Of a stretch of DNA of 21,957 bases, positions 1 through 20,119 are shown in pieces. A program made the translations under genes and the position numbers. The notes under the pieces are model-generated. The model was not told the origin of the DNA and ran no database searches. It was given only the letters and a program-made list of their open reading frames with translations. This stretch comes from Phycisphaerales bacterium UBA1845 (GTDB lineage Bacteria > Planctomycetota > Phycisphaerae > UBA1845): contig DDIR01000044.1 of the NCBI GenBank assembly GCA_002338715.1, positions 24,538 through 46,494 of the forward strand. The letters are read 5' to 3'. Every line of letters begins with the position of its first letter. Within the stretch, counting starts at the first letter, position 1.

Positions 1-1661
1 GGTTTCAAGGGCGCGATCTGCGAGCGCCCGATTCGCTGCTTGCCTGCGCGAAACACTTCGCCGCGTACGGTGCGCCGGAAGCGGGGAAGGATTACAACAC
101 CGTCGACATTTCGCTCGCAACGTTTTTCGAAGTGCATCTGCCGCCGTTTCGAGCGGCTGTCGATGCGGGCGTTGGAACATTGATGAGCGCGTTCAACGAA
201 ATCAACGGCGTGCCCGCAACCGCAAACCGATTCCTGATGACCGACATACTGCGAAGGCAATGGGGATTCGACGGATTCGTTGTCAGCGACTGGACAGCCG
301 TCACCGAACTTGTCGCGCATGGTTATGCCCGCGACGAAGCCGATGCGGCCGCCCTTGCGATTCATGCCGGTGTGGACATGGACATGACGTCGCAGGCGTT
401 TCGCACGCATCTCGCGAAAGCGGTTGACGAAGCCCGCATCGATATCCGCACGATCGATGAAGCCGTCCGCCGCGTCTTGATGGGCAAGGAATCGATCGGG
501 CTTTTTGAAAACCCGTACACCGATACGACGCTACACGACAAGGTGATACTCTGCGACGAACATCGCCATGCCGCGCGCGAGTCCGCCGGGCGCTCGATGG
601 TCCTTCTCAAAAACGAGGGATCCGTTTTGCCCTTAAATTCCAGCGTCAAGAAGATCGCGCTCATCGGTCCATTGGCTGACAACCAGCGCGAGTTACTGGG
701 TACGTGGGCGTCTATCGGGAAGGCTGAAGACGTCATCGCGATCCGCACCGCGCTAACGGAAGCCGTTGGGGACGGTGTCGACGTTGCCTACGCAAAGGGG
801 TGCGAAATCGAAGGCGGTTATACGTCTGGTATCGCAGGCGCTGTCGAAGTCGCCAACGAAAGCGACGTTGCGATCGTGGTCGTGGGCGAGACGGCTAGCA
901 TGAGCGGTGAAGCCAGTTGCCGATCGAACATCGACCTGCCGGGACATCAACTGGAACTCGTCAAAGCGATTCAAGCGACCGGCAAGCCGGTCGTTGTACT
1001 CGTTGCGAGTGGGCGGCCTTTGGCGATTCCTTGGGTGGCAGCAAATGTTCCTGCGATTGTGCAGATCTGGCATCCGGGTGTGGAAGCTGGGCATGCGGTG
1101 GCGGACGTTTTGTTTGGCAAGATCAATCCGTCGGCGAAGTTGCCGATCACGATTCCGCGCAACGTCGGGCAGGTTCCGATTTACTACGCCCACAAATCGA
1201 CGGGTCGGCCTCCCACCGATTCCTTCTTCACGTCCAAGTACAGCGATGTGCCATGGACGCCGCTTTATCCGTTTGGGTTTGGATTGAGTTACACAACGTT
1301 TGAATACGCCGACCTGGCATTGTCGCAAAGCAAAATGAAACCGGGCGAATCGATCACCGCCAGCGCGACCATCACCAACACGGGCAAGGTCGCCGGCGAA
1401 GAAATCGTCCAGCTCTACATCCGCGACAAAGTGGGTTCACGCACGCGGCCGGTCCGACAGCTTCGCGGTTTCAAACGCGTGTCACTCGCACCGGGCGAAT
1501 CGCAAACGGTTGAATTCAAGCTGACCGAAAATGACCTCGCCTACTGGGACAACAAGTTCGGATTCGAAGCCGAACCAGGCGATTTCACCGTATGGATCGC
1601 TCCGAACTCAGCCGACGGGTTGTCCGCGGAATTTGAACTCATCGGACAACAAAAGAACTAA
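1..1661 (+). CDS. GH3 beta-glucosidase (BglX-like), 5' end outside window
   Basis: This is a glycoside hydrolase family 3 enzyme that removes terminal beta-glucose from oligosaccharides. The reading frame is open from base 3, so the start lies upstream; 552 residues are visible. In order one sees the end of the N-terminal TIM-barrel domain, with the KHF..YG substrate-binding motif (bases 51-68) and the nucleophile motif GFVVSDW (Asp codon 288-290). The C-terminal alpha/beta domain follows, with VVGETASMSGEA and the LPGHQ motif. Last comes a fibronectin-III-like domain (EEIVQLYIRD, RQLRGFKRV). Localisation cannot be judged because the N-terminus is missing. The sugar symporter starts 25 bases downstream, so the two probably share a transcript. 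In Bacteroidota, GH3 enzymes acting on sophorose and sophoro-oligosaccharides are found beside GH144 genes, which fits this locus, but linkage specificity cannot be read from the sequence. Confidence 0.93.
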   Translation, partial: FQGRDLRAPDSLLACAKHFAAYGAPEAGKDYNTVDISLATFFEVHLPPFRAAVDAGVGTLMSAFNEINGVPATANRFLMTDILRRQWGFDGFVVSDWTAVTELVAHGYARDEADAAALAIHAGVDMDMTSQAFRTHLAKAVDEARIDIRTIDEAVRRVLMGKESIGLFENPYTDTTLHDKVILCDEHRHAARESAGRSMVLLKNEGSVLPLNSSVKKIALIGPLADNQRELLGTWASIGKAEDVIAIRTALTEAVGDGVDVAYAKGCEIEGGYTSGIAGAVEVANESDVAIVVVGETASMSGEASCRSNIDLPGHQLELVKAIQATGKPVVVLVASGRPLAIPWVAANVPAIVQIWHPGVEAGHAVADVLFGKINPSAKLPITIPRNVGQVPIYYAHKSTGRPPTDSFFTSKYSDVPWTPLYPFGFGLSYTTFEYADLALSQSKMKPGESITASATITNTGKVAGEEIVQLYIRDKVGSRTRPVRQLRGFKRVSLAPGESQTVEFKLTENDLAYWDNKFGFEAEPGDFTVWIAPNSADGLSAEFELIGQQKN

Positions 1662-1686
1662 TCGCGCGATCCATTCGAGAAACAAT

Positions 1687-3135
1687 ATGTCACAGATGCG
1701 ACAAACCGCCGAGTCCGATCGAATTCCTTTTGCTCAGAAGCTGGCGTTTGGATTCGGGATGGCCACCCCGATCGCATTTGTAAACTCGGTCAACCAACTC
1801 ACCAACCTTATCTACAACATCGCGCTCGGCGTCAGCCCCGTTTTGCTGGGCGTCGCTCAAATGATCCCGCGCCTTTGGGATGCGATTTCCGATCCGTTGG
1901 CTGGTTATCTTTCCGACAACACCCGAAGTCGATGGGGTCGAAGAAAACCGTACATCGTCATCGGCGGGATCAGTGTTGCGCTGACGTACGTGCTCGTCTG
2001 GACGGTTCCCAGCGGGCTGAGTGAAAACGCTGTATTTGCTTACTACCTCGGGATGAGTTTGCTCTTTTACACAGCCGTCACCGCCATGTCCGTCCCATTG
2101 GTTGCACTCGGTTGCGAAATGAGTGCGGACTATCACGAGCGGACTCGTCTCTTTGCATACGGAGGATTCATTGGCAACGTCTTTGCAATCCTGACGCCGT
2201 GGATGTACTGGCTCGCGACGCAACCCTATCTGTTCGACGACGAGGTCGAGGGGATGAAAGTTGTCGCGATCTTTGTCGCTGGCATCATCCTGGCATCGGC
2301 GCTGGTCTCCGGAATTGTCTGCCGCGAACCAAAGATTGAGCAGGTTCGCAAGCAGCGGAAGATCAAGTTCTGGGCCAGCATCGCCGCGACGATGAAGAAC
2401 AAGACGTACCTGCGCCTTATTGGCATCGTGTTCTGTGTGACTGCCGGTTTCAATCTCGTGAACAGTTTCGCCAACTACATCATGATTTACTACCTGTTCG
2501 ACGGCGTGAAGGACAAGGCATCATTTATCATGGGCGTCAATGGAACCGCTTGGGCAATCGCCGCATTGATCGCGGTTTTTCCAATGGCTTGGACAAGCAA
2601 ACGCCTCGGCAAGGCGAAGACCGTGCAGATTTCCGCGTTGATTATGTTGATTGGGTGCCTCCTCAAGATCGTCTGCTACAACCGTACTTATCCCTGGTTG
2701 ACGTTGATTCCCACCGTGTTGATCGCGATCGGCATGCTCGTGTTGTACACGATGGCTGGCGCGATGATCGCGGACATTTGCGACGAAGATGAACTGGAAA
2801 ACGGCGTCCGGCGGGAAGGCAGCTACTCCGCGGTATACAGCTGGTGGCTGAAGTTCGCGGTGTCCACAGGAATTCTGATCGCGGGATTGTTGTTGGAATC
2901 AACGGGTTATACGAACGTCCTGGACCAACAGCACTCGTTGACACTGTTCTGGTTGCGGGCGTTTGAAATCGGTTTGCCAGCGATCTTCTGCGCGATCGGA
3001 TACCGCTTGTTGGCCAACTACCCGCTGACCGAAGACCGCGTTTACGAAATCAAAGAAGCGTTGGCCCGGCGGCATAAATTGGAAGATGCAGCCGAGGCTA
3101 ATGGGCTTTCGGACAACCACACGACTGACGCGTGA
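1687..3135 (+). CDS. GPH-family sugar:cation symporter (MFS superfamily)
   Basis: A 482-residue inner-membrane transporter of the glycoside-pentoside-hexuronide:cation symporter family (MelB/XylP/GusB relatives), expected to import a glycoside with Na+ or H+. The family signature DAISDPLAGYLSDNTRSRWG is at about residues 65-84, followed by RRKPYI. Many hydrophobic segments follow, consistent with 12 helices. A second family motif, MIADICDEDELENG, lies in the loop late in the protein. The open frame extends upstream into the GH3 gene, but the ATG at 1687 (or 1696) gives the normal family N-terminus and clears the GH3 stop; the ribosome-binding site is weak (GAG about 8 bases upstream). Its place directly behind GH3 suggests import of oligosaccharides released by the locus. 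The last 38 bases overlap the end of the convergent lacI-type gene. Confidence 0.9.
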   Translation: MSQMRQTAESDRIPFAQKLAFGFGMATPIAFVNSVNQLTNLIYNIALGVSPVLLGVAQMIPRLWDAISDPLAGYLSDNTRSRWGRRKPYIVIGGISVALTYVLVWTVPSGLSENAVFAYYLGMSLLFYTAVTAMSVPLVALGCEMSADYHERTRLFAYGGFIGNVFAILTPWMYWLATQPYLFDDEVEGMKVVAIFVAGIILASALVSGIVCREPKIEQVRKQRKIKFWASIAATMKNKTYLRLIGIVFCVTAGFNLVNSFANYIMIYYLFDGVKDKASFIMGVNGTAWAIAALIAVFPMAWTSKRLGKAKTVQISALIMLIGCLLKIVCYNRTYPWLTLIPTVLIAIGMLVLYTMAGAMIADICDEDELENGVRREGSYSAVYSWWLKFAVSTGILIAGLLLESTGYTNVLDQQHSLTLFWLRAFEIGLPAIFCAIGYRLLANYPLTEDRVYEIKEALARRHKLEDAAEANGLSDNHTTDA

Positions 3136-4114
3136 CGAGTTCGGGGCGCAGGGCGATGTGGCGTTTGGGCAGGGTGGGGTCGTCGAGGCGCTGACAGACC
3201 AGTTCGATTGCGGTCGCGCCCATCTCAGCCAGCGGAACGCGCACGGTGGTCAGTTGCGGGCGGGTCATGCGGGCGATGCGCGTGTCGTCGAAACCCACCA
3301 CCGCGATATCCCGAGGCACCCGCAGTTGCAGCGCGTGGGCCGCATCGATAAATCCGCAGGCCATCTCGTCGTTCGCCGCAAACACACAGTGCTTTTCACC
3401 CTTCCAGTTGGGCAGATGCTGAATCGCGAATGCGTACGCGGTGTCGTAGTCGTAGTCGAGGTGGTGCACATCTTCGTTGCGAAATGGTGTACCCGTTTCG
3501 GCGAGGATTTCCTGATACGCCTTGAAACGTGCGATCGAGTCCATGTTCGTTTCCCAACCACCGACGAAGAAAATCCGCTTGGCATGGCAGGTGTTGATCA
3601 GGTGTCGCATCATCGCTGACGCGCCAGCCCGCTGGTCGATCACAACGCTGTCGTGCGATGTACCCGGTACGTCGGTGTCGATCAGCACGAGCGGCAGGTG
3701 AAGGTCGGCCAACGCTTGCTCAATGTGGTCGGTGACTTCCGCAACCATGATCGCGATGCCGTCCATGAACTGGCGCTGGCGCAAACTGCCGACGAGTCCG
3801 CGCGTATCCAGTGGATCGTGAGCCGACGACAACACGAGGCTGTACCCAAGCTCATGCGCCCGCAGATTCGCCCCACGGATGATCCCGGAATAAAACTCAC
3901 CGTGCATGTCGGGCAGGACCAGACCGATCATCTCGCTCTTGCGAAGCATCAAGCCGCGGGCGAAGGCGTTGGGGTGGTAACCGAGTTCGCGGATGGCGGC
4001 TTCGACGCGCTCGCGCGTTTGTGCGTTGACCAGTGCGGGGCGGTTGATCGTGCGCGAAACGGTGCTGATCGATACGTTTGCCCGAAGGGCGACGTCTGAG
4101 ATTGAGGCGGCCAT
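3098..4114 (-). CDS. LacI-family transcriptional regulator
   Basis: A 338-residue LacI/GalR-type regulator. Residues 4-25 are the helix-turn-helix (SISDVALRANVSISTVSRTI). The hinge-helix region follows (ELGYHPNAFARGL, about 44-56). The rest is the periplasmic-binding-protein-like effector domain, with typical strands (IGLVLPDMHGEFYSGII; DIAVVGFDD). Longer frames are possible (an ATG 36 bases upstream), but the ATG at 4114 has a strong AGGAAGGAA ribosome-binding site six bases ahead and gives the standard family start. It is divergent from the GH144-like gene at 4181 and overlaps the symporter gene tail-to-tail. The likely effector is a sugar from the glycan degraded here. Two LacI-type palindromes at 5774 and 12250 are its best candidate operators; none is evident in the short region between this gene and 4181. 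Confidence 0.93.
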   Translation of the reverse strand: MAASISDVALRANVSISTVSRTINRPALVNAQTRERVEAAIRELGYHPNAFARGLMLRKSEMIGLVLPDMHGEFYSGIIRGANLRAHELGYSLVLSSAHDPLDTRGLVGSLRQRQFMDGIAIMVAEVTDHIEQALADLHLPLVLIDTDVPGTSHDSVVIDQRAGASAMMRHLINTCHAKRIFFVGGWETNMDSIARFKAYQEILAETGTPFRNEDVHHLDYDYDTAYAFAIQHLPNWKGEKHCVFAANDEMACGFIDAAHALQLRVPRDIAVVGFDDTRIARMTRPQLTTVRVPLAEMGATAIELVCQRLDDPTLPKRHIALRPELVTRQSCGCPKAH

Positions 4115-4120
4115 GCCGTG

Positions 4121-4129
4121 TTCCTTCCT
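4121..4129 (-). promoter_or_regulatory. Ribosome-binding site of the LacI-family gene
   Basis: On the minus strand AGGAAGGAA sits six bases before the ATG at 4114. It decides this start over the in-frame ATG at 4150, which has no comparable site. Confidence 0.7.
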
Positions 4130-4143
4130 GAACCACTGGTCTG

Positions 4144-4172
4144 TTGACATAGCCAGCGGGCCCTAGTATCTG
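4144..4172 (+). promoter_or_regulatory. Possible promoter of the GH144-like gene
   Basis: An exact TTGACA (4144-4149) is followed by a 17-base spacer and a poor -10 (TATCTG, 4167-4172). A start site near 4179 would nearly coincide with the ATG at 4181, giving a leaderless or almost leaderless message. Only the -35 is convincing. Confidence 0.3.
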
Positions 4173-4180
4173 CTGACAGG

Positions 4181-5587
4181 ATGAATCGTCAACACATGTT
4201 ATCGTTGCTGATAGGAACGTCGGTGTTTGCGGCCAATCCTTCGCCCGACATTTTGCGGTCTGACGACACGAAATCCGTTGCATCGTATCGTTTTTTGGGC
4301 GCGGACGAGAAGCTGCTCGACGACGTTCAGCGGGGTTGCTTCGAGTATCTCTGGCACGAAGTAAGACCGCCCGCATATGTGGTCAAGGATCGCAAGAAAG
4401 CGCCGGTCGCGAGCGTTGCAGCCGTCGGGTTTCAGCTTTCGGCGATACCGATCGGCGTCGAACGCGGTTGGATCACGCGCGACGAGGGAGAGACGCGGGC
4501 GCTGGCGATTCTCGATGCGCTGCTTGGTCGAGACGACAACCGCCATGAAGGCATCTTCCTGCATTTCGTTGATCTGGAAACTGCCGGCCTGTCGACGACT
4601 GCTTACGAAGTGCTCGCGAGCACGATCGATACGTCGCTGTTGCTGCCCGGCGCGATGACCGTGTCGGAATATTTTGGCGGTAAGGTGCGTGAGCGTGCGG
4701 ACCAGATGCTGCGTGAGGCGAACTGGCGCGCGTTTGTCGACAAGGCGAGCGGGCTGGTCTGCATGGGGTGGCGGCCCGACGATCGCAGCAAGATGAACGG
4801 TTCGGGTAAATATCACAAATCGCTGTGGCAACTGTCCAGCGCAGAAGAGCATCTGGTCTATTGGTTGGCGATTGGTTCACCGGTCGAAGCACACGCCGCC
4901 GATCCCAAGTCATACTACAAGCTTCGTCGCGAAATCAAGCAGCACGGCGACATGCAGCCGTACGTGGTGTCATGGAGTGGCACTTTGTTTCACTACTTCT
5001 TCGATCACTGCTGGATTGATTACCGATCGTTGGCGGCTGACAATCCCAAGGAATTTGGCGTTGACGCGCCGCGGGTGGATTGGTTTGAAAATTCGCGCCG
5101 GGCGGTCTTGACCCATCGGCAGCGATGCATCGAAGCCGCGAAGCAATTCAAGACGTTCGGTCCCAATGTGTGGGGGCAAAGCGCGTGCGACGGTCCGGAC
5201 GGATACGCGGTGCCCCATGTCGGGCCCAACATCTCGAACGACGACAAGTGGTTCGGTGGAATTGTCGCGCCTTATGCCGCGGCATCGGCGATCATGTTCA
5301 CACCGGAAGAAAGCATGGCCGCCATTCGCGAAATGCGATCGTTGAAAGATGAGAACGGAAATCCTTTGATCTGGCGCGACCCGGCAAAGGGCGGATACGG
5401 GTTCGCCGACAGTTTCAATCTGGATCGCGGTTTTGTCAGCGACGATTACGTGGGTATCGATGAAGGGCCGATGATCCTGGCGATCGAGAACGCGCGGACG
5501 GGTTTGATCTGGCGGTTGTTCATGCAGCATCCAGCCAGTCAGCGGGCGGTTGGGCGGTTGAAGCTCTCAAAGGCGGCGGACCGTTAG
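4181..5587 (+). CDS. Divergent GH144 / glucoamylase-like family protein
   Basis: A 468-residue protein of the glucoamylase-like (PF10091) fold, an (alpha/alpha)6 barrel; the best known relatives are GH144 endo-beta-1,2-glucanases. Family blocks are visible in order: STIDTSLLLPGA (147-158), the barrel segment with E222 (SAEEHLVYWLAIGSP), FENSRRAVLTHRQRCIEA (302-319), WGQSACDGPDGY (331-342), APYAAASAIMFTPEESM (363-379) and GYGFADSFN...YVGIDEGPM (405-431), then IENARTGLIWRLFMQHP. Length fits a single catalytic domain. The N-terminus (LSLLIGTSVFA before AN) could be a short signal peptide, implying export. No earlier start is available in frame; an ATG at 4196 is an alternative. It departs from the canonical pattern seen in its paralogue at 8402 (SAEE instead of YNEA; NDDKWFGGIVAP instead of a NGTISPTAA-type block), so substrate or mode of action may differ. 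Confidence 0.8.
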   Translation: MNRQHMLSLLIGTSVFAANPSPDILRSDDTKSVASYRFLGADEKLLDDVQRGCFEYLWHEVRPPAYVVKDRKKAPVASVAAVGFQLSAIPIGVERGWITRDEGETRALAILDALLGRDDNRHEGIFLHFVDLETAGLSTTAYEVLASTIDTSLLLPGAMTVSEYFGGKVRERADQMLREANWRAFVDKASGLVCMGWRPDDRSKMNGSGKYHKSLWQLSSAEEHLVYWLAIGSPVEAHAADPKSYYKLRREIKQHGDMQPYVVSWSGTLFHYFFDHCWIDYRSLAADNPKEFGVDAPRVDWFENSRRAVLTHRQRCIEAAKQFKTFGPNVWGQSACDGPDGYAVPHVGPNISNDDKWFGGIVAPYAAASAIMFTPEESMAAIREMRSLKDENGNPLIWRDPAKGGYGFADSFNLDRGFVSDDYVGIDEGPMILAIENARTGLIWRLFMQHPASQRAVGRLKLSKAADR

Positions 5588-5745
5588 CGATTGAAACGTT
5601 GACGGTAGTTCGCATAATCAGGGCATATGCATTCGGGCCAAAGCATTAACGGAACACAAGTTAAGGGCCAATTCGGGGTGACCTGCCCGAGCGGGTTTGC
5701 GTGGAGACGGTTATAGGACGCCATCTTGCGATAGCGAGTTTGCGA

Positions 5746-5774
5746 TTGATCGTATCCGGCGGATGGGTTAGGAT
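5746..5774 (+). promoter_or_regulatory. Candidate promoter for GH94
   Basis: TTGATC (5746-5751), a 17-base spacer and TAGGAT (5769-5774) make a plausible sigma70-type promoter. The operator palindrome starts at its last base and would cover the transcription start, a standard repressor position. Confidence 0.4.
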
Positions 5775-5787
5775 GAAAGCGCTTTCA
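5774..5787. promoter_or_regulatory. LacI-type operator, perfect palindrome
   Basis: TGAAAGCGCTTTCA is a perfect 14-base palindrome with the central CG typical of LacI/GalR-family operators (compare the cre consensus TGWAANCGNTNWCA). It lies 113 bases upstream of the GH94 start and about 1.66 kb from the lacI-type gene at 4114. A near-copy is at 12250-12263. Confidence 0.8.
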
Positions 5788-5899
5788 GTATGCCCAGCGA
5801 TGGGGCGGCAGAAACCTCGATCCACCTCGCTTCAACTGACGTTGCGACGGGCGGTTTCGATTTGGGTTTGGGAGACCCGCCTCGGAAAGGATCCGTTCC

Positions 5900-8323
5900 A
5901 TGACCATTGCAACAACCCCGCATTCCCATCTGGGCGGTGCGGTTGATTTGAAAAATCTCTTGCCCAATCGATACGGTCATTTTTCACCCGATGGTCGGGA
6001 ATACCAGATCACCGACTGGCGCACACCGCGCCCATGGGTCAACATCATCGGCAACACGCGGCAGGGGTTGGCCGTCAGTCAAACCGGCAGCGGTTTCAGT
6101 TGGATCGACAACTCGCAACTCGGCGTCATCACCCGTTGGCAGCAGGAATTCGTTCAGGATTCGTCCGGCAAGTTCCTTTACGTGCGCGATGCAGACAAGA
6201 AAGATGTGTGGTCGCTCGCGCCCGCACCATGTTGGCCGGCGTATGACGAGTTCCTCTGTCGTCACGGACTCGGCTACACCGTTTTTGAAACCACGATCAA
6301 AGGCATCAACGCAAAGTGGACGCTGTGGGTCGATCCGGTCACGACGGCTGAGCTTTGGCTGGTCGAGTTAAAGAATCTTTCCGATGGTCCGCGACGACTC
6401 GAGTTGTGCGGGGCGCTGGAGTGGAATTGTGGTGTCGCACCGTCGCCGCGCCGCGAGTTCCACAAGCTCTTTCTCGAAACGCATTACGACCTGGACCGCC
6501 GCGCAATCATCGCCCGCAACCACATGTGGGAAGTGAATCACAAAAAGTATGGCCACTGGAATCGCCCCTGGCCTTTTGTTGCTGCGTTTTCCGCGACCGA
6601 ACCCGTGCAAGCCGCACAAGGCGACAAAGCTGAGTTCGCCGGGCGCTATCGCGGGATGGACAAACCGGCAGCGCTTGAAGCCAACAACTGGCAGCCGCGT
6701 TTCGGACGGCATCAGGATCCGATCGGGGCGCTGCGCTGTGAGGTTGAACTTCGCGGCGGCGAGTCGCGCACGATGGGCTTCGTGATTGCGGCGGCTGACG
6801 ATGACGATGCGTTGGCGAATGTGCTCAAGCAGTTTGAATCGTGCGACGCGATCGCCAATTCGCTCGAAAGCGTGAAGCAGGATTGGGTCGAGCGGTTGTC
6901 GGAGCATCGCATCGAAACGCCCGATCCCAGCATCGATCTGTTGACCAACGATTGGCTGCGCTATCAAGCGATCGTCGGGCGCATGTGGGGGCGCGGTGGA
7001 TATTATCAGCAGAGCGGGGCGTATGGTTTCCGCGATCAGTTGCAGGATTCGCAGGTCTGGCTGACGATCGATCCGGAGAAGTGTCGCGAGCAAATCAACC
7101 TGCACGCGTCACATCAGTTCAAAGATGGATCGGTGTATCACTGGTGGCATCCGCTTAGTGAAGACGGTTTGATCACGACGATGACGGATGACCTGCTGTG
7201 GCTGGCGTTTGTGTCGGCCAACTACATCCGCGAAACTGGCGATGTTTCGATCCTCTGCGACGAAACGCCGTTTCTCGATGACAAGAATCCCGCAACGCTT
7301 CGCGAGCACGTGTTCCGTGCGTTCGAGCGCGTTTTTCGCAGGACGAGTCCGCGCGGTTTGCCGTACATCGGCGCCGGCGATTGGAACGATGGATTGAGTG
7401 CGGCTGGCTTGCAGGAAAAAGGCGAGTCGATTTGGCTTGGGCATTTCTTTGCGGGCATCCTTGGTGACTGGGCGCACATCCTGACGTCATTGGGCGAGCA
7501 GGATGAGGCCAACGTGCTCCGGCAGCGTCGGGCGAAGTTGGTTGCGGCGATTAATGAACACGGGTGGGATGGCGAATGGTATTCACGCGCGACGCTCGAC
7601 GACGGTTCCAAACTCGGTAGCGCCGAATGCGATGCCGGTAAGATTTTCCTCAACGCGCAGACCTGGGCGATCCTCAACAACATCGCCGATGCACCGCGGG
7701 CCGAGCAGTGTTGGAAAGCTGTCTGCGAAAACCTCGTCAGCGAAGCCGGCGCGTTGCTGTTGGCACCTGCATTCACCAAGCCGGCAGAGCAGATCGGTTA
7801 CATCACCCGTTATGCACCGGGGCTCCGTGAGAATGGCGGGGTCTATACGCACGCGGCGACCTGGGCGATCGCAGCCGCTGCAAAGATGCGCGATCACGAA
7901 ACGCTTGGGCAACTGCTAACTGCGATCAATCCGACCAACAAGGATCCGGAGCGTTACTGGGCTGAGCCTTACGTGACGCCGGGCAATGTGGACGGACCCC
8001 TTTCGCCGAACTTCGGCCGCGGTGGTTGGACGTGGTACACCGGATCAGCGGCTTGGCTCCACCGGGTGATTTGCGAGTGGGTGCTTGGCGTGCGTCCGAC
8101 CTGGGAAGGGTTGCTCGTCGATCCGTGTATGCCGAAGGGTTGGACGACCGCGAAGATCACGCGCCCCTATCGCGGCAACGTATACGACATACAAATCGAC
8201 GTGACGAATCAAAACGGCAAGCAAGCGAAGTTGACGCTCGACGGCAAAGAGATTTCCGGAAATGTGATCCCGCCAACGAAGGTGACGGGTCAGCGACACC
8301 AAGTCAAATTGCAATACGTGTAG
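5900..8323 (+). CDS. GH94 inverting glycoside phosphorylase
   Basis: An 807-residue family GH94 phosphorylase. Such enzymes cleave a beta-glucoside with phosphate and release alpha-sugar-1-phosphate. The start (NRYGHFSPDGREYQITDWRT) and the beta-sandwich block (FLCRHGLGYTVFETTI) match the family. The barrel carries GAYGFRDQLQDS (G376-D379) and GAGDWNDG, whose Asp494 is at the position of the GH94 general acid; GGVYTHAATW and GRGGWTWYTGSAAWLHR follow. There is no signal peptide, so it acts in the cytoplasm on imported sugars. Length matches disaccharide phosphorylases (about 800) rather than 1,2-beta-oligoglucan phosphorylases (about 1100). The active-site motifs resemble the chitobiose-phosphorylase / NdvB-like branch more than cellobiose phosphorylase (which has ADWNDCLN). 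The true substrate, perhaps sophorose or another beta-diglucoside, is open. The AAAGGA site eight bases upstream supports the ATG. Confidence 0.92.
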   Translation: MTIATTPHSHLGGAVDLKNLLPNRYGHFSPDGREYQITDWRTPRPWVNIIGNTRQGLAVSQTGSGFSWIDNSQLGVITRWQQEFVQDSSGKFLYVRDADKKDVWSLAPAPCWPAYDEFLCRHGLGYTVFETTIKGINAKWTLWVDPVTTAELWLVELKNLSDGPRRLELCGALEWNCGVAPSPRREFHKLFLETHYDLDRRAIIARNHMWEVNHKKYGHWNRPWPFVAAFSATEPVQAAQGDKAEFAGRYRGMDKPAALEANNWQPRFGRHQDPIGALRCEVELRGGESRTMGFVIAAADDDDALANVLKQFESCDAIANSLESVKQDWVERLSEHRIETPDPSIDLLTNDWLRYQAIVGRMWGRGGYYQQSGAYGFRDQLQDSQVWLTIDPEKCREQINLHASHQFKDGSVYHWWHPLSEDGLITTMTDDLLWLAFVSANYIRETGDVSILCDETPFLDDKNPATLREHVFRAFERVFRRTSPRGLPYIGAGDWNDGLSAAGLQEKGESIWLGHFFAGILGDWAHILTSLGEQDEANVLRQRRAKLVAAINEHGWDGEWYSRATLDDGSKLGSAECDAGKIFLNAQTWAILNNIADAPRAEQCWKAVCENLVSEAGALLLAPAFTKPAEQIGYITRYAPGLRENGGVYTHAATWAIAAAAKMRDHETLGQLLTAINPTNKDPERYWAEPYVTPGNVDGPLSPNFGRGGWTWYTGSAAWLHRVICEWVLGVRPTWEGLLVDPCMPKGWTTAKITRPYRGNVYDIQIDVTNQNGKQAKLTLDGKEISGNVIPPTKVTGQRHQVKLQYV

Positions 8324-8328
8324 TTGTC

Positions 8329-8402
8329 GGGTGGGCCATGCCCACCATGTCGTTGGCGTTTGAGAATGTTGGCAATCAAACGGCGGTGGGCACGGCCCAC
8401 CC
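8329..8402. repeat. Nested palindromic element between convergent genes
   Basis: GGGTGGGCCATGCCCACC (8329-8346) and GGTGGGCACGGCCCACCC (8385-8402) are inverted copies with one mismatch. Each arm is also a small hairpin by itself (GGTGGGC/GCCCACC). Inside them CGTTTGA (8357-8363) pairs with TCAAACG (8376-8382). The element fills nearly all the space between the GH94 stop (8323) and the stop of the convergent GH144 gene (8404). It could serve as a bidirectional terminator or mRNA 3'-end structure. From memory, GTGGGC...GCCCAC palindromes recur in planctomycete genomes as REP-like elements; that needs a genome search. Confidence 0.7.
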
Positions 8403-12263: not shown

Positions 12264-12287
12264 TGGTGGGTCGGCGCGTTTATGATG
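12259..12287 (+). promoter_or_regulatory. Promoter for the PEP-CTERM gene
   Basis: TTGCAA (12259-12264), a 17-base spacer and TATGAT (12282-12287) form a good sigma70-type promoter. The operator at 12250-12263 covers the -35. The predicted leader is about 110 bases long. Confidence 0.55.
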
Positions 12288-12393
12288 GACTATAGTCCGA
12301 GGGCGTCTCTACCGCTGCACCGGACTCTCTTCCGCGGCAGCGATTATTGTGAGCAAATGTGGCTCTGCGGCGACTTTTCAAATCTCTCATTTT

Positions 12394-12400
12394 GGAGGAG
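12394..12400 (+). promoter_or_regulatory. Ribosome-binding site of the PEP-CTERM gene
   Basis: GGAGGAG ends five bases before the ATG at 12406, a near-perfect Shine-Dalgarno. It settles the start in favour of 12406 rather than the upstream in-frame GTG at 12349. Confidence 0.8.
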
Positions 12401-12405
12401 TAAAG

Positions 12406-13215
12406 ATGCAACAAAGGAAAGGCACAAGCTATTCACTGCTGGTCGCAGTGGCTACGGTCACCGCGCTGGGTGTTGCGGTTGAGGCCATGGCGGCTCCAAC
12501 GGTCACGGGTGCGCTGCTCAATACCCGCGTCTTCAATGACGATGGCGGTTCAACGCTCAACACAATCAACAACTTTCCCACTCAGGTGCAGTTCGACGAC
12601 ACAACGAATTCAGGTGCCGGTTTCGCAAATCTGCACAACTTCCACCTCGCCAGCGATTTCATCACCGAAGCCGTGTTCAACAACGGCGACAGCTTTGACT
12701 TCTCAGCCGACCTGACAATCAGCGGCGACGGTCAAGGCGAAGGCGGTCTTCAAGTCGCACCCTGGTGGTCGCACAATGTCGACGGCCGCTTCAACTTCCG
12801 GACCACCGATGGCGAAATCGCCGTTTTCGGTGGTCGTCTTCCTTTTTACAGCTTCACCGGTTCGCAGGGCCTGACCTACACCAAGGGTGACACGGTCAAT
12901 GTCGGCGTGAAGTATCGCGCGAATGGCCTCAGCTCAGGTTCACCCGCGACGATTGAGTATTTGCTGACCCTCGGTGGAAATGATTACACCAGCGGCCCGT
13001 TGGCATTCGATGAAGGCAATGCAGCTGAAGGCATGGGCACGTGGGGCATGCTCGATGACGCCCGCGTTGGTGGTTATGTCCAGTACTTCACCGGTGGCAG
13101 TGGTGCAGGCAACGGTCTGGTCGCGAACTTTGGCAACATGAGCTTTGTACCTGAACCGGCAAGTCTCGCGCTGTTGGCGATGGGTGCCGTGACGATGCTT
13201 CGTCGTCGTCGCTAG
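12406..13215 (+). CDS. PEP-CTERM sorting-signal surface protein
   Basis: A 269-residue exported protein. Residues 1-29 are a signal peptide (SLLVAVATVTALGVAVEAMA). Residues 248-269 form a classic PEP-CTERM tail: a VPEPAS motif, a hydrophobic stretch and four terminal arginines. In this system exosortase handles the tail and the protein ends up at the cell surface or in exopolysaccharide. The mature part is beta-rich, with many Gly, Asn and aromatic residues and no Cys; I do not recognise a catalytic domain. A jelly-roll or lectin-like fold is possible but unproven. It is the first gene behind the operator-controlled promoter at 12259, which suggests induction along with the glycan-degrading enzymes and a role in glycan capture or surface attachment. 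A stem-loop follows at 13297. Confidence 0.85.
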   Translation: MQQRKGTSYSLLVAVATVTALGVAVEAMAAPTVTGALLNTRVFNDDGGSTLNTINNFPTQVQFDDTTNSGAGFANLHNFHLASDFITEAVFNNGDSFDFSADLTISGDGQGEGGLQVAPWWSHNVDGRFNFRTTDGEIAVFGGRLPFYSFTGSQGLTYTKGDTVNVGVKYRANGLSSGSPATIEYLLTLGGNDYTSGPLAFDEGNAAEGMGTWGMLDDARVGGYVQYFTGGSGAGNGLVANFGNMSFVPEPASLALLAMGAVTMLRRRR

Positions 13216-13296
13216 TCAAATGAAGTTTGAATGCTGCGCGTTGACGCGCCTGATCCAATGGCGCGATGCGTGCGGACGATTGTTTTCCTTCATTGC

Positions 13297-13326
13297 GATG
13301 CGGCAGCAGCGAATCGCTGCCGCATC
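13297..13326 (+). terminator. Strong stem-loop after the PEP-CTERM gene
   Basis: GATGCGGCAGC (13297-13307) and GCTGCCGCATC (13316-13326) form a perfect 11-base stem with an 8-base loop. No T-run follows on either strand, so it may be a weak terminator or a 3'-end stabiliser that lets the surface gene be expressed more than the genes behind it. Confidence 0.55.
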
Positions 13327-13379
13327 GGACTGAGGGGAATACGCAGATGAATTCGGGGGAACACGGGGACGTATGAAGC

Positions 13380-13385
13380 AAGGGA
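13380..13385 (+). promoter_or_regulatory. Ribosome-binding site of the pseudopilin gene
   Basis: AAGGGA lies eight bases before the ATG at 13394. The earlier in-frame ATGs (13373, 13385) lack a well-spaced site. Confidence 0.5.
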
Positions 13386-13393
13386 TGGCCAAC

Positions 13394-14272
13394 ATGCGAT
13401 TGAGAAGAAACCGAGCTGGATTCACGCTGGTCGAACTGTTGGTGGTGATATCCATCATCGCTTTGCTTGTCTCGATCCTGCTGCCTTCCCTCAAGAAGGC
13501 GCGCGATCAGGCGAAGGACACATTGTGCAAGGCGAACATGCATCAACTGGGTCTCGCGGTTCAATACTACGTGCAAGATTCCCAAGATCACCTGCCATGG
13601 ATTCCGGGCGTTCCGATTGGCGGTGGCAGCCCGTACCACAAAGCCCCCTTCAAACAATACCGACATATCCTGCAACTCTGGCCTTACCTTAAAGATCTGA
13701 AAATCTACGAGTGCCCAAAGGCGAAGTCGGCCAACGCAAAAGGTGGCCAACCCGGTGCTCGGTCAATCACGGCAGAAGAATTCGTTTCGATGCAGGATAG
13801 TGCCAGTCCTTCGATGACCCAGTACTTCGCGGTCAAGAGCGACCCGCTCGTCAAGAAGTTTGTTCAGAATCGTGAATTCTCGTTCGTCAGCGTGCAGGAG
13901 TTTCAGGACCCAAGCACGAAGTTGCTGAAGAATGTGTACACAGAGTATTGGTTCAACGATTGGAATGACGGAGCCGGTGACATTCCGGCGATCAGCGGAA
14001 ATCTGATCAACATGATTCCGTTCCCCGATTTGTCGGTGATGTTCAGCGATGCATTGCCACAGCGTCCGCGTCACAACGGCGGGCATCACATTCTCTTCCT
14101 CGACACCCACGTCGAGTGGTTCAAGCAAGAACGATATTTCGACTACGAAGCCGGCAGTTATCAAGAGGCGAACGATAAAGATCGGTTTGGTAATCGCCCG
14201 TATTGGTCGTGGGGTTTGAGCAAGGGCGGAAACAAGGTCGTGGACGGTTCGACGGGTCAGTACTCGAACTAG
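13394..14272 (+). CDS. Type II secretion / type IV pilin-like pseudopilin (prepilin N-methylation protein)
   Basis: A 292-residue protein with a class III prepilin signal. A short basic leader (MRLRRNRAG) precedes [19 protein letters not shown], and prepilin peptidase would cut between G and F. The [12 protein letters not shown] continuation is characteristic of Phycisphaerae. The C-terminal part has the RHNGG...[11 protein letters not shown] motif found in the large planctomycete pseudopilin group (H-X9-DG / DUF1559-like). Such proteins are inserted in the inner membrane and may be built into a pseudopilus; planctomycetes carry many of them, often next to secreted or surface proteins. Starts at 13373 or 13385 would only lengthen the leader. 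It lies between a PEP-CTERM gene and a multi-module binding protein, suggesting a role in exporting or displaying them (inference). Confidence 0.88.
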
Positions 14273-14436
14273 GCGGATTGCGCATTCGGCGGATCAGGTC
14301 GAAAGCCAATCGCGCGTGGTTGCGGTCCAAGAGGTTGAACGAAGTCAACAGGTTTGATTGAAGATCAAAACGTCGCACGAGTGCAGTCCACTTGGGCGGA
14401 AAGCGGCAAAGTTCAAGAGGCGGAAGGAAAGCAGTG

Positions 14437-16257
14437 ATGAAAGCTCAAAAAACATTGGTATTGGCGATGCTTGCGTCGCTGATTTCGTTCGGAGCAGCAA
14501 ATGCAGCTCAAAATATCTTGCTCAACGGCAGCATCGAAGACAGCGACGCAAATGCGCTGGATCCGTTTGTTCCCGGTGGATGGGAACTCAGCGGCAACGT
14601 GATTGAACGCTCGTCGGAGGCGAATCTCGTCCCGGTCGGCGCAGGACACGCGCTGAAGGCATTCCAAAGCAACCCGACCGAACTGGCGTTCCAGGATATC
14701 CCGGTCGCGGGTGGCTCGGACAGTGTCACGGTCAGTGCTCAGTTGTATACCAGAACAGGTGACAAAGTCGGCGGGAACGCGATTGCGGGTATCGCACTCG
14801 GATTCTTCGACAACGGAGGCAATCAGGTCGGCGGTGCCACGCAGTTTAACTTCGTGATGGATGCGTCTTCGCCGGCTGACACCTGGATTCCGGCGTCAAT
14901 CGGCCCGGTGGCGGCGCCTGCGGGAGCAACCAAAGCCAGAATGACCTGCGTCTGGATTGCAAGCTCCGGTTCCGGTGCTGCGTTTTGGGACGACGCACGG
15001 TTGACCCTCAACGGCGATCCGACCAACCTCCTCGCCAACGGTGATTTTGAGTTGGCTGGTCCCGGTGAAGCGTCCCCCAATGCAGTGGCTGAATGGGGCG
15101 GATTCGGTGATCAGCGTCCTTCAGAAGATCATTCGCTTCACGGTGATGTCAGCTTGAAGATCGGCACCGATTCGGCGTTCAGTGGACTGTTCCAGAACAT
15201 GACCGAGGTCTTTGAAGGCGAACGCGTTTTGCTCAAAGGACGCGTGTTGCACACCTCGACCAACGGTTTGACGAACAACGCCCTTGCCGGTTTGAAGCTT
15301 GAATTCTCACCGCCCGGTGGTTCATCGCTGCCGCCGCCTTCGGAAAACTTCCCATTCGGTGCGGACTCGACGTCCAACGCGTGGGTGATGATCGACATCG
15401 GTACCATTGGTGTTGAAGTTCCGGATGATGCCGGTCTCGCCCGTATTACGATGATCATGTTCCCCGATGCGTCGACCAACAGCGTCGTTTATTTTGATCA
15501 GGCGTTCGCGGCATTGTCCCGCGCCCCGTCAACGAACCTGTTGACCAACTCGAGTTTTGAAAACGGATTCGGTGGTCCCAACGGAATCGACGATTGGCAG
15601 GAGTTTGGTCCGGAAGCACAGCTTTCGTTTGAAGTCGGTGGGTTGGAGAACAACCTGGTGGATGAAGATGTGTTTGGTGCCAGTGCGAAGATGGCTGGTT
15701 CCGATTTCACCGGTATCTCGCAAGAAATTTCGCTGCCATCGACGCTTCTGCCAAATGAAACGTTGTACGTGCGGGCTTTCGTCAGGCAGCAGGATGTCGA
15801 AGCCCAGCAGCTTCACGGTACCGCAAAAGCCGGCGTCAAGATCGAATGGATCGCGGGAACGCTTCCCGGCGTTATCGATATTGGCAGCAGTGCCGATGAT
15901 CATACGATTGACTCCACCAGTCCGACCGATGTCTGGATTCCATTGGAAATCGACTTCACGATGCCAGCCGGCAATGCCGCGTTGACGCGAGCTGTCTGCA
16001 TTGTGTCAGCCGGCACGGGAACGGGCGAAGTCTTCTTTGACAATCTTGAAGCCGTCATCACCAATCGTTTCGATGGCGCAGATGCCGACGGCGACGACGA
16101 CGAAGACCTGTTCAACTTCGGCGAGTTCCAACGGTGTTTCACCGGTAGCGGTGCGGGCGATCTCGATTGGAATTGCACGGTGTTCGACAACGACGAAGAT
16201 ATCGACATCGATCTGGTTGACTTCAACTACTTCCACCCGAGAATCACGGGCCCGTAA
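14437..16257 (+). CDS. Secreted protein with three tandem CBM-like modules and a dockerin-like C-terminus
   Basis: A 606-residue exported protein with no recognisable catalytic domain. Residues 1-23 are a signal peptide (LVLAMLASLISFGAANA). Three repeats of about 170 residues start at NILLNGSIED (26), NLLANGDFEL (197) and NLLTNSSFEN (367). Each closes with a similar strand: AAFWDDARLTL, VVYFDQAFAAL, EVFFDNLEAVI. This is the pattern of CBM4/9-like (CenC-type) carbohydrate-binding modules. Residues 545-606 are dockerin-like: two acidic Ca2+-type loops (DADGDDDEDL, DNDEDIDIDLVDF) separated by a segment with two Cys. The frame extends 15 codons upstream, but the ATG at 14437 has a GGAAGG site and yields the signal peptide. 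It probably binds the target glycan outside the cell and presents it to the enzymes. A terminator follows at 16303. Confidence 0.8.
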   Translation: MKAQKTLVLAMLASLISFGAANAAQNILLNGSIEDSDANALDPFVPGGWELSGNVIERSSEANLVPVGAGHALKAFQSNPTELAFQDIPVAGGSDSVTVSAQLYTRTGDKVGGNAIAGIALGFFDNGGNQVGGATQFNFVMDASSPADTWIPASIGPVAAPAGATKARMTCVWIASSGSGAAFWDDARLTLNGDPTNLLANGDFELAGPGEASPNAVAEWGGFGDQRPSEDHSLHGDVSLKIGTDSAFSGLFQNMTEVFEGERVLLKGRVLHTSTNGLTNNALAGLKLEFSPPGGSSLPPPSENFPFGADSTSNAWVMIDIGTIGVEVPDDAGLARITMIMFPDASTNSVVYFDQAFAALSRAPSTNLLTNSSFENGFGGPNGIDDWQEFGPEAQLSFEVGGLENNLVDEDVFGASAKMAGSDFTGISQEISLPSTLLPNETLYVRAFVRQQDVEAQQLHGTAKAGVKIEWIAGTLPGVIDIGSSADDHTIDSTSPTDVWIPLEIDFTMPAGNAALTRAVCIVSAGTGTGEVFFDNLEAVITNRFDGADADGDDDEDLFNFGEFQRCFTGSGAGDLDWNCTVFDNDEDIDIDLVDFNYFHPRITGP

Positions 16258-16302
16258 GGAAGACGCCCAGTACGCTGAATGTCAGCAAAACAAAGACAAC
16301 CG

Positions 16303-16337
16303 AATGCCCTGCCGGATCTTCCGCGCAGGGCATTTTT
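16303..16337 (+). terminator. Intrinsic terminator after the triple-CBM gene
   Basis: AATGCCCTGC (16303-16312) pairs with GCAGGGCATT (16325-16334) around a 12-base loop, and a T-run (16333-16337) closes the structure. It lies only 43 bases before the next ATG. Confidence 0.85.
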
Positions 16338-16380
16338 ATGCGCAGACGACAACTCTTGCAGAATTCGAGGCAAATCAATA

Positions 16381-19300
16381 ATGCGTAAATCCAAATTGGC
16401 CGTCGATCGCAGCACCTGGGCTTTGATTACCGCGCTTCTCATCGCAACATCCCTCGCCAATGCCGCACCAACTATATTGGATGACTTTGAGACGTTGGAT
16501 CGGTGGACCGTCAACGCGAATGATGGAGTCGTGGCCTCCATCAAGCCGGCGCCCGGCGTTGATGGCAAGTGCATGCAGCTGGATTTCGATTTTCGCGCGG
16601 GGGCGGGGTTTGTTGTGATCCGTCGCGTCGTTGACTTTGAACTGCCGGAAAACTATCGGTTCGCATTTGCGCTGAGGGGGGAAGCGCCTTCAAACAATTT
16701 GGAATTCAAACTTGTCGATCCGTCGGGTGACAACGTTTGGTGGGTCAATCGACGGAACCTGACCTTCCCCAAAACATGGGAGACCACACGCTACAAAGCC
16801 AGACACTTCGAGTTCGCATGGGGACCGGCTGGCAATGTCCCGATGAAGCGACTCGGCGCCATCGAATTCGCGGTGGCGGCTAGCAGCGGTGGGAAAGGGC
16901 GCGTGTTCATCGATTCACTCACTTACGAAGCCCTGCCCAAACCCAAGCCGGTCACGACTGCGCCGGGCATCCGGTTTTCTTCAAATACCAGCGTCGACTC
17001 CGCGAAACTCAAGACGCTTCCGCAAGACGGTACTGTTCACTGGCGACCGGCTGACGATGACGAATCGCGTTGGCTCGAACTCGACTTTCACGATGTGCGC
17101 GAATTGGGCGGTATCGTCATCGATTGGGCGGCTGACAATTATGCACGCAACTACGACGTTGAATTGACGCTCGACGGTTCGACTTGGGAACGCGCGGCGA
17201 GCGTTCGTGATGGCAATGGCCGACGTGACTACATACCGACGCGCGACGCCGAGGCGCTGGGCGTGCGCGTGGTGATTGCGGATGACGGACCGATCGAGAT
17301 GCGCAGCGTGACCGTGCGCGATGTTGAATTTTCGCAGGATCAGAACCGGCTCTTTGAATCGATCACAGCCGAGTCGCCTCGCGGAAATTTCCCGGCGTAC
17401 TTTCTAAGAGAGCATGCGCCCTGGACGATCGTCGGTGTATCCGGTGATACGAATGAAGCGCTCGTTGGTGCGTACGGACAGGTGGAGGTCAAACGCAGCG
17501 GCTGGTCGCTCGAACCGTTCTTGAATATTGGGGGCAAACTGCAAACCTGGGCGGATGCATCGATCAAACAATCGTTGGTGGAGGGCTACATTCCGATCCC
17601 GTCCGTCACGTGGGGCATCGACGGTTTGCAACTGACAACGACCGCGTTTGCGGATGGCGACGCCGAATCTTCGGAACTCGTCGTGTCATACGCGATACAA
17701 AACCAAAGCGCCGAGTCGGTCGAAGGCAATTTTTTCCTGGCCATCCGACCTTTTCAGGTGTTGCCACCGTGGCAGAATCTGAACATCACCGGGGGCGCGA
17801 CATCCATCGATGCGATTTCAAGAGATGGTACAGGCGTTCACGTCAATGAAGATCCGCCGCTTGAACTTTGGACAACACCGGACGGATTTGGAGCGACCAC
17901 TTTCGATGGCGGCGATATCAGCGAATACCTGGCCGCCAACGAACTGCCTATATCGCAAATGGTAGCGTGTAGCGATGGCAGTGCGTCGGGGGGGCTGCGC
18001 TATGCGTATGAACTTGCGCCCGGTGAAGACAAACTTGTCGTCGTCTCGATTCCGATGCATAAGGCGGCTAAGGCGGTGGCAAGTGGGGTCTCAGATCGCG
18101 ATTACGCAAAACGCCTAACCAAGGCCGCTGATTCCTGGCGGACCATGCTCAATCGGGTGCGTTTGAAGCTCCCGCAATCACTGAAGCAATTGGAGGACAC
18201 GTTCCGCGCGACGCAGGCGTATATCCTGATCAATCGCGACGGGCCAGCGATTCAGCCGGGTTCGCGGACGTACGAGCGCAGTTGGATTCGCGATGGATCG
18301 GTGACATCCACGGCGCTGCTGTCGTGCGGACATACGGATGCGGTGCGCGAATATCTGGATTGGTATGCGGGCAATCAATACCCCGATGGCAAGGTGCCAT
18401 GCGTGGTTGATCGACGCGGTCCGGACCCGGTTCCGGAGCATGACAGCAGCGGCGAGTTGATCTACGCGATCAACACCTTCTATCGATTCACGCACGATCG
18501 AGCGTTTCTCGAATCCAAAGTCTCGAATGTGAAGCGAGCGGTGGACTACGTCGAAGCGCTTCGCAATCAACGCACCACCGATCATTACAAACACGGTGAA
18601 GGCGTGACCCGGGCGTGCTATGGCCTCGTGCCCGAATCGATCAGTCACGAGGGATACAGTGCCAAGCCCATGCATTCCTACTGGGACAATTTCTTCGTTG
18701 TCAAAGGTTTTAAGGATGCGGCTTCGATCGCAAATGAGTTGCAGGATTCTGAATTCGCGAAGCGTTGCACGAAGCTACACGATGCCCATCGCGACGCCCT
18801 GTATGACTCGCTCGATCTGTCGATGAAGCTGCACGACATCAAATACCTTCCTGGTTGCGCAGAGTTGGGCGACTTCGACGCGACGTCGACCGCGATCGCG
18901 GTCTTCCCATGCGAGCAACTTCAACACCTGCCTTCGGAGGCACTCGCGTTTACATTTGATCGCTACTTCGATTTCTTCCAGAAACGTGCGTCTGGTCAGG
19001 TGGAGTGGAACGATTACACGCCGTATGAGATTCGGATTGTCGATGCGTACGTGCGGATGGGGCAGCCGAAGCGGGCCCGCGCACTGCTTGATTTCTTTTT
19101 GAAGGATCAGCGACCAAACGCATGGCGACAGTGGGCCGAGGTGGTCTGGCGCGATCCGAAGGCGCCGCGATTTCGCGGCGACATGCCGCATACCTGGGTG
19201 GGAAGCGCGCTGATCAATTCGGTGCGATCGATGTTCGTGTACGAACGCGATGGTCAATTGGTGTTGCTAGCCGGCGCGGGCGAGACTTGGCTCGCCGAAG

Positions 19301-19548
19301 ATTCGGGCGTGGAGATTGAAGGTTTCCCGACGTACTTTGGAACACTGAATCTGCGCGCGTCTATGACCGGTAACACGATGACTGTCGAACTGGCCGGTGA
19401 TGCTCGCCCACCGAAAGGATTCGAGTTGACACTACCGCGCAAAGCCGCGCCAACCGATGTCGTGGTAGATGGAAAACCCGTTGCTGTTCCAACCGGTCAG
19501 CGTATCGCTCTGGACAGCGCGCGGCGCATTGTTGTCACTTGGCGCTGA
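16381..19548 (+). CDS. Large secreted discoidin-domain six-hairpin glycosidase-like protein
   Basis: A 1055-residue exported protein. Residues 1-28 are a signal peptide (ALITALLIATSLANA). About 32-182 is a CBM-like module (DDFETLDRW...GRVFIDSLTY). About 190-335 is a discoidin/F5-8C domain (DDDESRWLELDFHDVRELGG; YDVELTLDGSTWERA). About 345-590 is a large beta-sandwich. About 600-965 is an (alpha/alpha)6-type region with ERSWIRDGS (D638), PDGKVPCVVDRRG and VEWNDYTPYE (E875, D878). A C-terminal beta domain closes it. This order resembles GH15/GH65/GH94-like enzymes, but I cannot name the family. The acidic motifs are candidate catalytic residues by analogy only. The frame runs 34 codons upstream, through the terminator at 16303; the ATG at 16381 (GAGG ten bases ahead) is the sensible start. 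It is probably a glycan-cleaving enzyme of this locus. The small convergent gene at 19573 follows. Confidence 0.75.
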   Translation: MRKSKLAVDRSTWALITALLIATSLANAAPTILDDFETLDRWTVNANDGVVASIKPAPGVDGKCMQLDFDFRAGAGFVVIRRVVDFELPENYRFAFALRGEAPSNNLEFKLVDPSGDNVWWVNRRNLTFPKTWETTRYKARHFEFAWGPAGNVPMKRLGAIEFAVAASSGGKGRVFIDSLTYEALPKPKPVTTAPGIRFSSNTSVDSAKLKTLPQDGTVHWRPADDDESRWLELDFHDVRELGGIVIDWAADNYARNYDVELTLDGSTWERAASVRDGNGRRDYIPTRDAEALGVRVVIADDGPIEMRSVTVRDVEFSQDQNRLFESITAESPRGNFPAYFLREHAPWTIVGVSGDTNEALVGAYGQVEVKRSGWSLEPFLNIGGKLQTWADASIKQSLVEGYIPIPSVTWGIDGLQLTTTAFADGDAESSELVVSYAIQNQSAESVEGNFFLAIRPFQVLPPWQNLNITGGATSIDAISRDGTGVHVNEDPPLELWTTPDGFGATTFDGGDISEYLAANELPISQMVACSDGSASGGLRYAYELAPGEDKLVVVSIPMHKAAKAVASGVSDRDYAKRLTKAADSWRTMLNRVRLKLPQSLKQLEDTFRATQAYILINRDGPAIQPGSRTYERSWIRDGSVTSTALLSCGHTDAVREYLDWYAGNQYPDGKVPCVVDRRGPDPVPEHDSSGELIYAINTFYRFTHDRAFLESKVSNVKRAVDYVEALRNQRTTDHYKHGEGVTRACYGLVPESISHEGYSAKPMHSYWDNFFVVKGFKDAASIANELQDSEFAKRCTKLHDAHRDALYDSLDLSMKLHDIKYLPGCAELGDFDATSTAIAVFPCEQLQHLPSEALAFTFDRYFDFFQKRASGQVEWNDYTPYEIRIVDAYVRMGQPKRARALLDFFLKDQRPNAWRQWAEVVWRDPKAPRFRGDMPHTWVGSALINSVRSMFVYERDGQLVLLAGAGETWLAEDSGVEIEGFPTYFGTLNLRASMTGNTMTVELAGDARPPKGFELTLPRKAAPTDVVVDGKPVAVPTGQRIALDSARRIVVTWR

Positions 19549-20061: not shown

Positions 20062-20119
20062 GATCTATCCTTTCCGTTTCGGTTTGATTAATTCGTTTAT
20101 TATGGTACGGATCGAGCAA

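Follow-up and report, generated by a model that had tools for sequence, protein, structure and literature searches.

Gene content and recurrence of the locus

We analyzed a 21,957-nt stretch of DNA (the window; positions 24538-46494 of the 51 kb contig DDIR01000044.1) from the planctomycete Phycisphaerales bacterium UBA1845 and propose that it carries a beta-1,2-glucan utilization locus. The locus extends from a GH3 beta-glucosidase gene, which starts upstream of the window, through a gene ending at 19548 that encodes a 1089-aa protein (GHx), and includes a GH94 phosphorylase, two PF10091 proteins (P4 and P6), a GPH symporter, a LacI-family regulator and a GH1 beta-glucosidase (Table 1). An earlier reading made without database searches (the sequence-only reading) had placed GH3, GPH, LacI, GH94 and GH1 genes in one stretch with planctomycete-type surface proteins attached. 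Pfam and NCBIfam scans of the window proteins recover every gene it named, and the surface proteins include a PEP-CTERM protein and a pseudopilin-like DUF1559 protein. The whole-genome search found two PF10091 genes, both in this locus. The carAB-like genes seen by eye further upstream are unrelated.

The gene order, which the sequence-only reading had suggested seeking in other Phycisphaerae, recurs in two genomes of the same genus and, in parts, in genomes of the same family, the same order and elsewhere in the class, so the locus is not a chance assembly. Its distribution is that of a patchy, accessory element: the same-genus genome G022 shows no match to PF10091, free-standing GH94, SOGP (EC 2.4.1.333, the second phosphorylase considered here) or GHx, and a PF10091 match is absent from 19 listed genomes of the same family. 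Of the 298 class genomes searched, the window's own among them, 94 contain PF10091, synthases counted; in the 298-genome searches limited candidates were scored per genome (at most three GH94, two SOGP and six GHx), and absences are soft.

Table 1 Features of the locus, in window coordinates
Feature	Position	Strand	Description
GH3 beta-glucosidase, C-terminal part	3..1661	+	Pfam GH3_N, GH3_C, Fn3-like
GPH/MelB-type cation symporter, MFS_2	1687..3135	+	PF13347 232 bits; proposed importer of beta-1,2-gluco-oligosaccharides
LacI-family regulator	3098..4150	-	PF00356, PF13377; beside P4 in most relatives fetched
P4, PF10091 protein, clan GH-S	4181..5587	+	PF10091 167 bits; signal-like N terminus (by eye)
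GH94 phosphorylase	5900..8323	+	PF17167 342 bits, PF06165 216 bits; no signal-like N terminus (by eye)
P6, GH144	8402..10696	-	PF10091 238.5 bits (cut-off 27); signal-like N terminus (by eye)
GH1 beta-glucosidase	10681..12081	-	PF00232 521 bits; TIGR03356 546 bits, above cut-off
PEP-CTERM surface protein	12349..13215	+	PF07589; conserved in relatives
Pseudopilin-like DUF1559 protein	13373..14272	+	PF07963, PF07596
621-aa secreted-looking protein	14392..16257	+	No Pfam match; carbohydrate-binding-like repeats (by eye); conserved in relatives
GHx	16279..19548	+	Secreted-looking; F5/8 domain and six-hairpin match; likely start 16378

The GH94 phosphorylase and the gene beside P4

The window GH94 resembles most closely the GH94 domain of the synthase, which, according to the available text of PMC11842490, trims beta-1,2-glucan chains by phosphorolysis. 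Its profile scores 656 bits against the synthase, 509 against cellobiose phosphorylase (CBP) and 50, over part of the length, against the SOGP structure 5h3z; in the search of solved structures CBP is the second-best kind of match (384 bits) and SOGP is barely seen (21 bits). The DWND motif, with D494 invariant in 15 of 15 sequences, aligns to the DWND of synthase and CBP. In a tree of 53 rows, 49 of them different (the synthase's 15 rows represent 11 different sequences), 24 free-standing homologs and the 15 synthase-domain rows split from 14 other GH94s including CBP with support 100/100, a branch on which we reject a CBP identity for the window enzyme; the free-standing group by itself has support 90/78. 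Of the 80 named GH94 loci, 24 were chosen for the tree; L154 among them was lost for want of a long open reading frame (ORF). An Ignavibacteriota metagenome-assembled genome (MAG) sits in the window clade, and the nearest relatives by name are Phycisphaerae MAGs at 97% and 85% identity. The window GH94 is not SOGP either, since it has no full-length similarity to LpSOGP 5h3z. Free-standing enzymes of this type are a known kind, because Kobayashi et al. already described the homolog IALB_1177 in an Ignavibacterium album GH144 cluster, with sophorose as the expected remainder of its action (PMC8861115, available text); the planctomycete setting is a variant. The term 'sophorose phosphorylase' was not met in the literature searched.

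Free-standing GH94 (at least 791 bits, in two cases as two separate pieces; the next matches are synthase domains, none above 528) occurs in 18 of the 298 genomes and SOGP (at least 538 bits, the next at 58) in 13, with no overlap. Taken alone, this mutual exclusion is not significant (Fisher p = 1, in a test that ignores relatedness). P4 is present in all 18 GH94 genomes and lies within 1.5 kb of GH94 in 16 of them, with a small ORF between in three; in G077 it is far from GH94, and in G095 the two genes are on different contigs. Presence of P4 in 27 genomes was assigned from the best tblastn and blastp matches and the PF10091 table rather than by a separate P4 search.

What follows P4 differs between relatives. 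The window order is GPH, LacI, P4, GH94, and loci L090, L091, L092 and L093 have the order LacI-P4-X-GPH (P4-X-GPH in L096), where X encodes 1,107-1,175 aa, so the gene after P4 is what is exchanged. X of L090 is SOGP, matching 5h3z over its full length with 652 bits, and a nearby GH35 gene matches a beta-1,2-glucosyltransferase (537 bits to 7vkw). GH35 is found in five of the 13 SOGP loci, P4- or P6-like genes in ten and GPH in six; L089, from the window's own order, combines SOGP with a window-type GPH (73%), P6 (57%), GHx and a PEP-CTERM protein, without P4. The presence of SOGP beside P4 in relatives, often with a beta-1,2-glucosyltransferase and GPH, makes beta-1,2-glucan very probably the substrate. 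This replacement is our strongest evidence that the window GH94 would handle beta-1,2-gluco-oligosaccharides and that GPH would import them.

The 80 named GH94 loci, from Planctomycetota, Acidobacteriota, Calditrichota, KSB1, Ignavibacteriota and others, contain P4 or P6 in 62 cases, GHx in 40, GH1 in 31, and SOGP and GH35 in none. Where at least 7 kb is available on either side, P4 or P6 is present in 36 of 43.

The PF10091 proteins, GHx and the beta-glucosidases

P6 has an N-terminal domain, an Fn3-like region and a weak dockerin-like match at its C terminus. Its best Protein Data Bank matches are 4gl3 (434 bits), 5z06 (BDI_3064; 416 bits, Fn3 region included) and 5gzh (CpSGL, 389 bits). P6 residues D400, D404 and E407 have spacing identical to that of CpSGL D135, D139 and E142, a match of spacing, and E479 aligns with the glutamate of solved relatives at the general-acid position (CpSGL E211); the catalytic roles in CpSGL, XcSGL and the clan are those given in the available text of PMC12102758. 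In the PF10091 tree P6 groups with 4gl3 and 5z06 with supports of 100/100 and 98/94. By these comparisons P6 is inside GH144, and we predict that it hydrolyzes beta-1,2-glucan.

In P4 the acid position is occupied by E222, that of the clan Phe by F270 and that of the base by D150, the first two corresponding to XcSGL E239 and F286; the register assumes that the solved XcSGL chain carries E239Q, whereupon F286 and I453 fall on F270 and I426. The clan tyrosine (XcSGL Y367) aligns to I351 beside an insertion, and Y342 is a guessed counterpart. The P4 profile reaches XcSGL (257 bits) and other GH144-type chains (down to 185 bits) first, followed by 8xuk (62 bits) and 8wy1 (30 bits; named glycosyltransferase 36), which we take to be GH194 and GH189 chains, respectively. 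The tree comprises 37 hand-chosen rows (11 P4, nine P6, three solved, seven fusion domains, four SOGP-locus P4 and three synthase), among which the P4 rows do not make one group. A GH193 reference for P4, sought via plasmid records, was not recognized among 40 listed of 99 matches (27-33% identity). P4 thus appears to be a deep-branching relative of GH144 in clan GH-S whose membership in GH144 is not clear. The sequence-only reading had counted two GH144 proteins: score, residues and tree place P6 firmly in the family, so the two PF10091 proteins are not both outside it, and the tree leaves P4 less clearly assigned. In other listed proteins PF10091 is joined to ABC-type sugar-binding domains (for example, P0179).

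GHx consists of an F5/8 domain, a beta-sandwich, an (alpha/alpha)6 catalytic domain (about 18139-19263) and a C-terminal beta domain; the structure model has a pLDDT of 91.1 (91.6 for the catalytic domain alone). It does not reach PF00723 (GH15) at E 0.1 in Pfam, and five of 25 homologs match that family weakly (best 1.5e-5). In the predicted structure the catalytic fold appears GH15-like, with alpha-1,6-active enzymes among its best matches; when the whole model is searched with Foldseek, GH94 phosphorylases come out on top. Two glutamates, E791 and E954 in the numbering of the 1089-aa ORF, are invariant and are candidate residues for activity. Identity to dextran dextrinase, glucodextranase, a 5z3a-type glycosidase and bacterial glucoamylase, all of which we take to be GH15 members, is 14-17%, and unlike these enzymes GHx has an F5/8 domain and a beta-1,2-glucan gene context. 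The family is large, with 7,928 of 7,998 scored candidates matching at E <= 0.001 (120 of the 7,928 were listed), and has no Pfam or NCBIfam name. GHx (at E <= 1e-20) is present in 25 of the 31 class genomes with either phosphorylase and in none of the 267 with neither. We regard it as a candidate new family and a putative secreted enzyme, whose genomic partners predict action on beta-1,2-glucans or their decorations. The sequence-only reading missed it; its description of 'secreted binding proteins' needs amending for this one. The GHx gene of G089 is split into two overlapping ORFs (L089:11342-14636), possibly a real split or a sequencing frameshift.

Natural fusions join several of these domains. 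Among 120 listed of 276 proteins, at least nine are GH144-GHx fusions, query included, and at least nine are GH144-GH3 fusions, in both domain orders (P0122, P0165, P0178, P0182, P0192, P0193, P0194, P0201 and P0204); the listing was limited to lengths between 0.55 and 1.75 times 1,481 aa, a range biased towards fusions, and 21 of the 120 were blasted, so both counts are minima. The window GH3 is 47-53% identical to the GH3 half of nine natural GH144-GH3 fusions. The expression 'discoidin domain-containing' together with GH144 was not met in the literature searched.

The best solved relatives of GH3 are JMB19063 (557 bits) and 5xxl (521 bits; a B. thetaiotaomicron enzyme). Its start lies behind an N-run scaffold gap, and its N terminus looks secretion-like by eye. 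A short run of residues is repeated on the two sides of this gap (window position 1; L004:11302-13698), which makes an overlap of the contigs probable. L005, which begins within the final 500 bases of the window, contains another gap of this kind. The GH1 ORF runs to 12180, with an internal ATG as the likely start, and the enzyme, whose N terminus does not look signal-like by eye, is probably cytoplasmic. Streptomyces has a sophorose-active GH1 enzyme (PMC12369401, available text); SGR_2426 was not recognized by chain name among 60 shown of 193 GH1 chains. Beyond the locus, positions 20024-21568 encode a 514-aa secreted-looking protein with no Pfam match. It contains, by eye, a CCAAHDECY stretch that resembles secreted phospholipase A2.

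A proposed pathway, its alternatives and known systems

We consider it probable (roughly 0.8) that the locus is a beta-1,2-glucan utilization system, on comparative grounds throughout. Secreted P6 and P4 would cut beta-1,2-glucans to oligosaccharides (Sopn), secreted GH3 would trim these, and the GPH symporter would import short Sopn. Cytoplasmic GH94 would then phosphorolyze Sopn to glucose-1-phosphate, probably down to sophorose, for hydrolysis by GH1; LacI is the likely switch, and GHx, a secreted-looking protein with an apparently GH15-like fold, may perform an accessory step outside the cell. The scheme is based on gene content, recurring order, catalytic residues, phylogeny, the exchange of GH94 for SOGP next to P4, natural fusions and co-occurrence, and from these we infer substrate specificities, transport direction, regulation and localization. 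The beta-1,2-glucan use proposed by the sequence-only reading thus gains support from catalytic residues, GH94 phylogeny, the SOGP replacement, beta-1,2-glucosyltransferase neighbours and both kinds of GH144 fusion. So does its suggestion of GPH import and phosphorolysis instead of a SusCD system: Pfam scanning of the 13 window proteins, which covers these proteins and not the flanks, finds no SusC or SusD family.

Several observations weigh against this interpretation. GH1 and GH3 are broad families. A P4- or P6-like gene is not seen by tblastn in 18 of the 80 named GH94 loci, or in seven of the 43 with at least 7 kb of flank on either side, and GPH is found at only nine of the 80, so GPH import is not universal. 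The LacI beside P4 in SOGP loci is only 34-35% identical to that of the window and need not be the same regulator. A 100/100 branch unites XcSGL, 4gl3, 5z06, the fusion domains and P6 and leaves P4 outside (CpSGL is not in the tree). Many of the 94 class genomes with PF10091, a count that takes in synthases, lack both phosphorylases.

The breadth of GH1 and GH3, together with CBP as the second-best kind of solved GH94 relative, would also fit a locus serving another beta-glucan, such as cellulose or laminarin oligosaccharides, with a cellobiose-type GH94 and PF10091 proteins acting on something else. We consider this very unlikely given the GH94 phylogeny, SOGP in the same place and the GH35 beta-1,2-glucosyltransferase neighbours; moreover, all six clan enzymes in Table 1 of PMC12102758 (available text) are specific for beta-1,2-glucan. 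P4 followed by GH94 matches the order of the synthase PF10091 and GH94 domains, and the window GH94 adjoins the synthase domain in the tree, as if the two genes were a split synthase. This idea is the hardest to credit: no glycosyltransferase domain is found by Pfam among the 13 window proteins and the P4 profile gives 30 bits to 8wy1 versus 257 to XcSGL, on which grounds we rejected it, and uptake is suggested by the importer, the signal-like N terminus of P4 and a GH94 that looks cytoplasmic.

In a version nearer to the proposed pathway, P6 would act in exo mode, as BDI_3064 does, and supply sophorose (Sop2) to a GH94 that phosphorolyzes it. P6 has the Fn3 region found in 5z06 and groups near it in the tree, and disaccharides are often the cargo of GPH carriers. 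The available texts of PMC8861115 and PMC11842490 describe exo action of the 5z06 enzyme on Sopn, without the name BDI_3064. Yet SOGP needs a degree of polymerization of 3 or more (PMC5309861, available text), Sop2 is the expected end product of the Ignavibacterium homolog (PMC8861115), there would be no need for a cytoplasmic GH1, and P6 lacks about 17 residues present in 5z06, making this version unlikely.

A role for GHx can be suggested only tentatively. Natural beta-1,2-glucans include alpha-1,6-cyclised and beta-1,6-branched forms (PMC11228985, available text). GHx might, though we think it unlikely, be the founder of a GH15-like family for bacterial beta-1,2-glucans. On this reading it would be an alpha-1,6-glucosidase of the exo type that removes the one alpha-1,6 link in each cyclised glucan, acting after GH144 opens the ring and GH3 trims it to a stub. 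The alpha-1,6 link is a guess prompted by the alpha-1,6-active enzymes among the matches of the GH15-like fold, and it draws no support from the whole-model match to GH94. We know of no degradation route for alpha-1,6-cyclised beta-1,2-glucans; if the guess is right, loci with GHx digest them.

In many bacteria beta-1,2-glucans occur in the periplasm and outside the cell, with roles in symbiosis and infection, and few degradation routes are known; the locus would add one from planctomycetes that combines a GPH importer with a phosphorylase of a second type. The synthase shares with the window the PF10091-then-GH94 arrangement, and its GH94 domains are the nearest relatives of the window GH94, but it unites these parts with a glycosyltransferase in a single protein of about 2,900 aa, whereas the window has separate genes and no glycosyltransferase among its 13 scanned proteins. 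Streptomyces griseus SGR_2422-2427 likewise has a GH1 beta-glucosidase beside a clan GH-S glucanase, but there the glucanase is GH193 and the transporter ABC-type, and the available text of PMC12369401 mentions no phosphorylase. Listeria innocua Lin1839-1841, in the same text, combines a phosphorylase, a GH3 beta-glucosidase and an importer as the window does, but with an SOGP-type GH94 and an ABC transporter. Ignavibacterium album IALB_1177-1187 is likewise assigned to beta-1,2-glucan and has a free-standing synthase-type phosphorylase homolog and two GH144 genes; it differs in its ABC and possibly TonB transport and its GH35 glucosyltransferase (PMC8861115, available text). The window lacks GH35 and has instead GPH, LacI, GH1, GH3, GHx and surface proteins of planctomycete type. 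The idea of phosphorolysis is therefore not new, given the Ignavibacterium homolog already described; what is new here is the proposed pairing of GPH import with a synthase-type phosphorylase in planctomycetes, and GHx as a candidate family.

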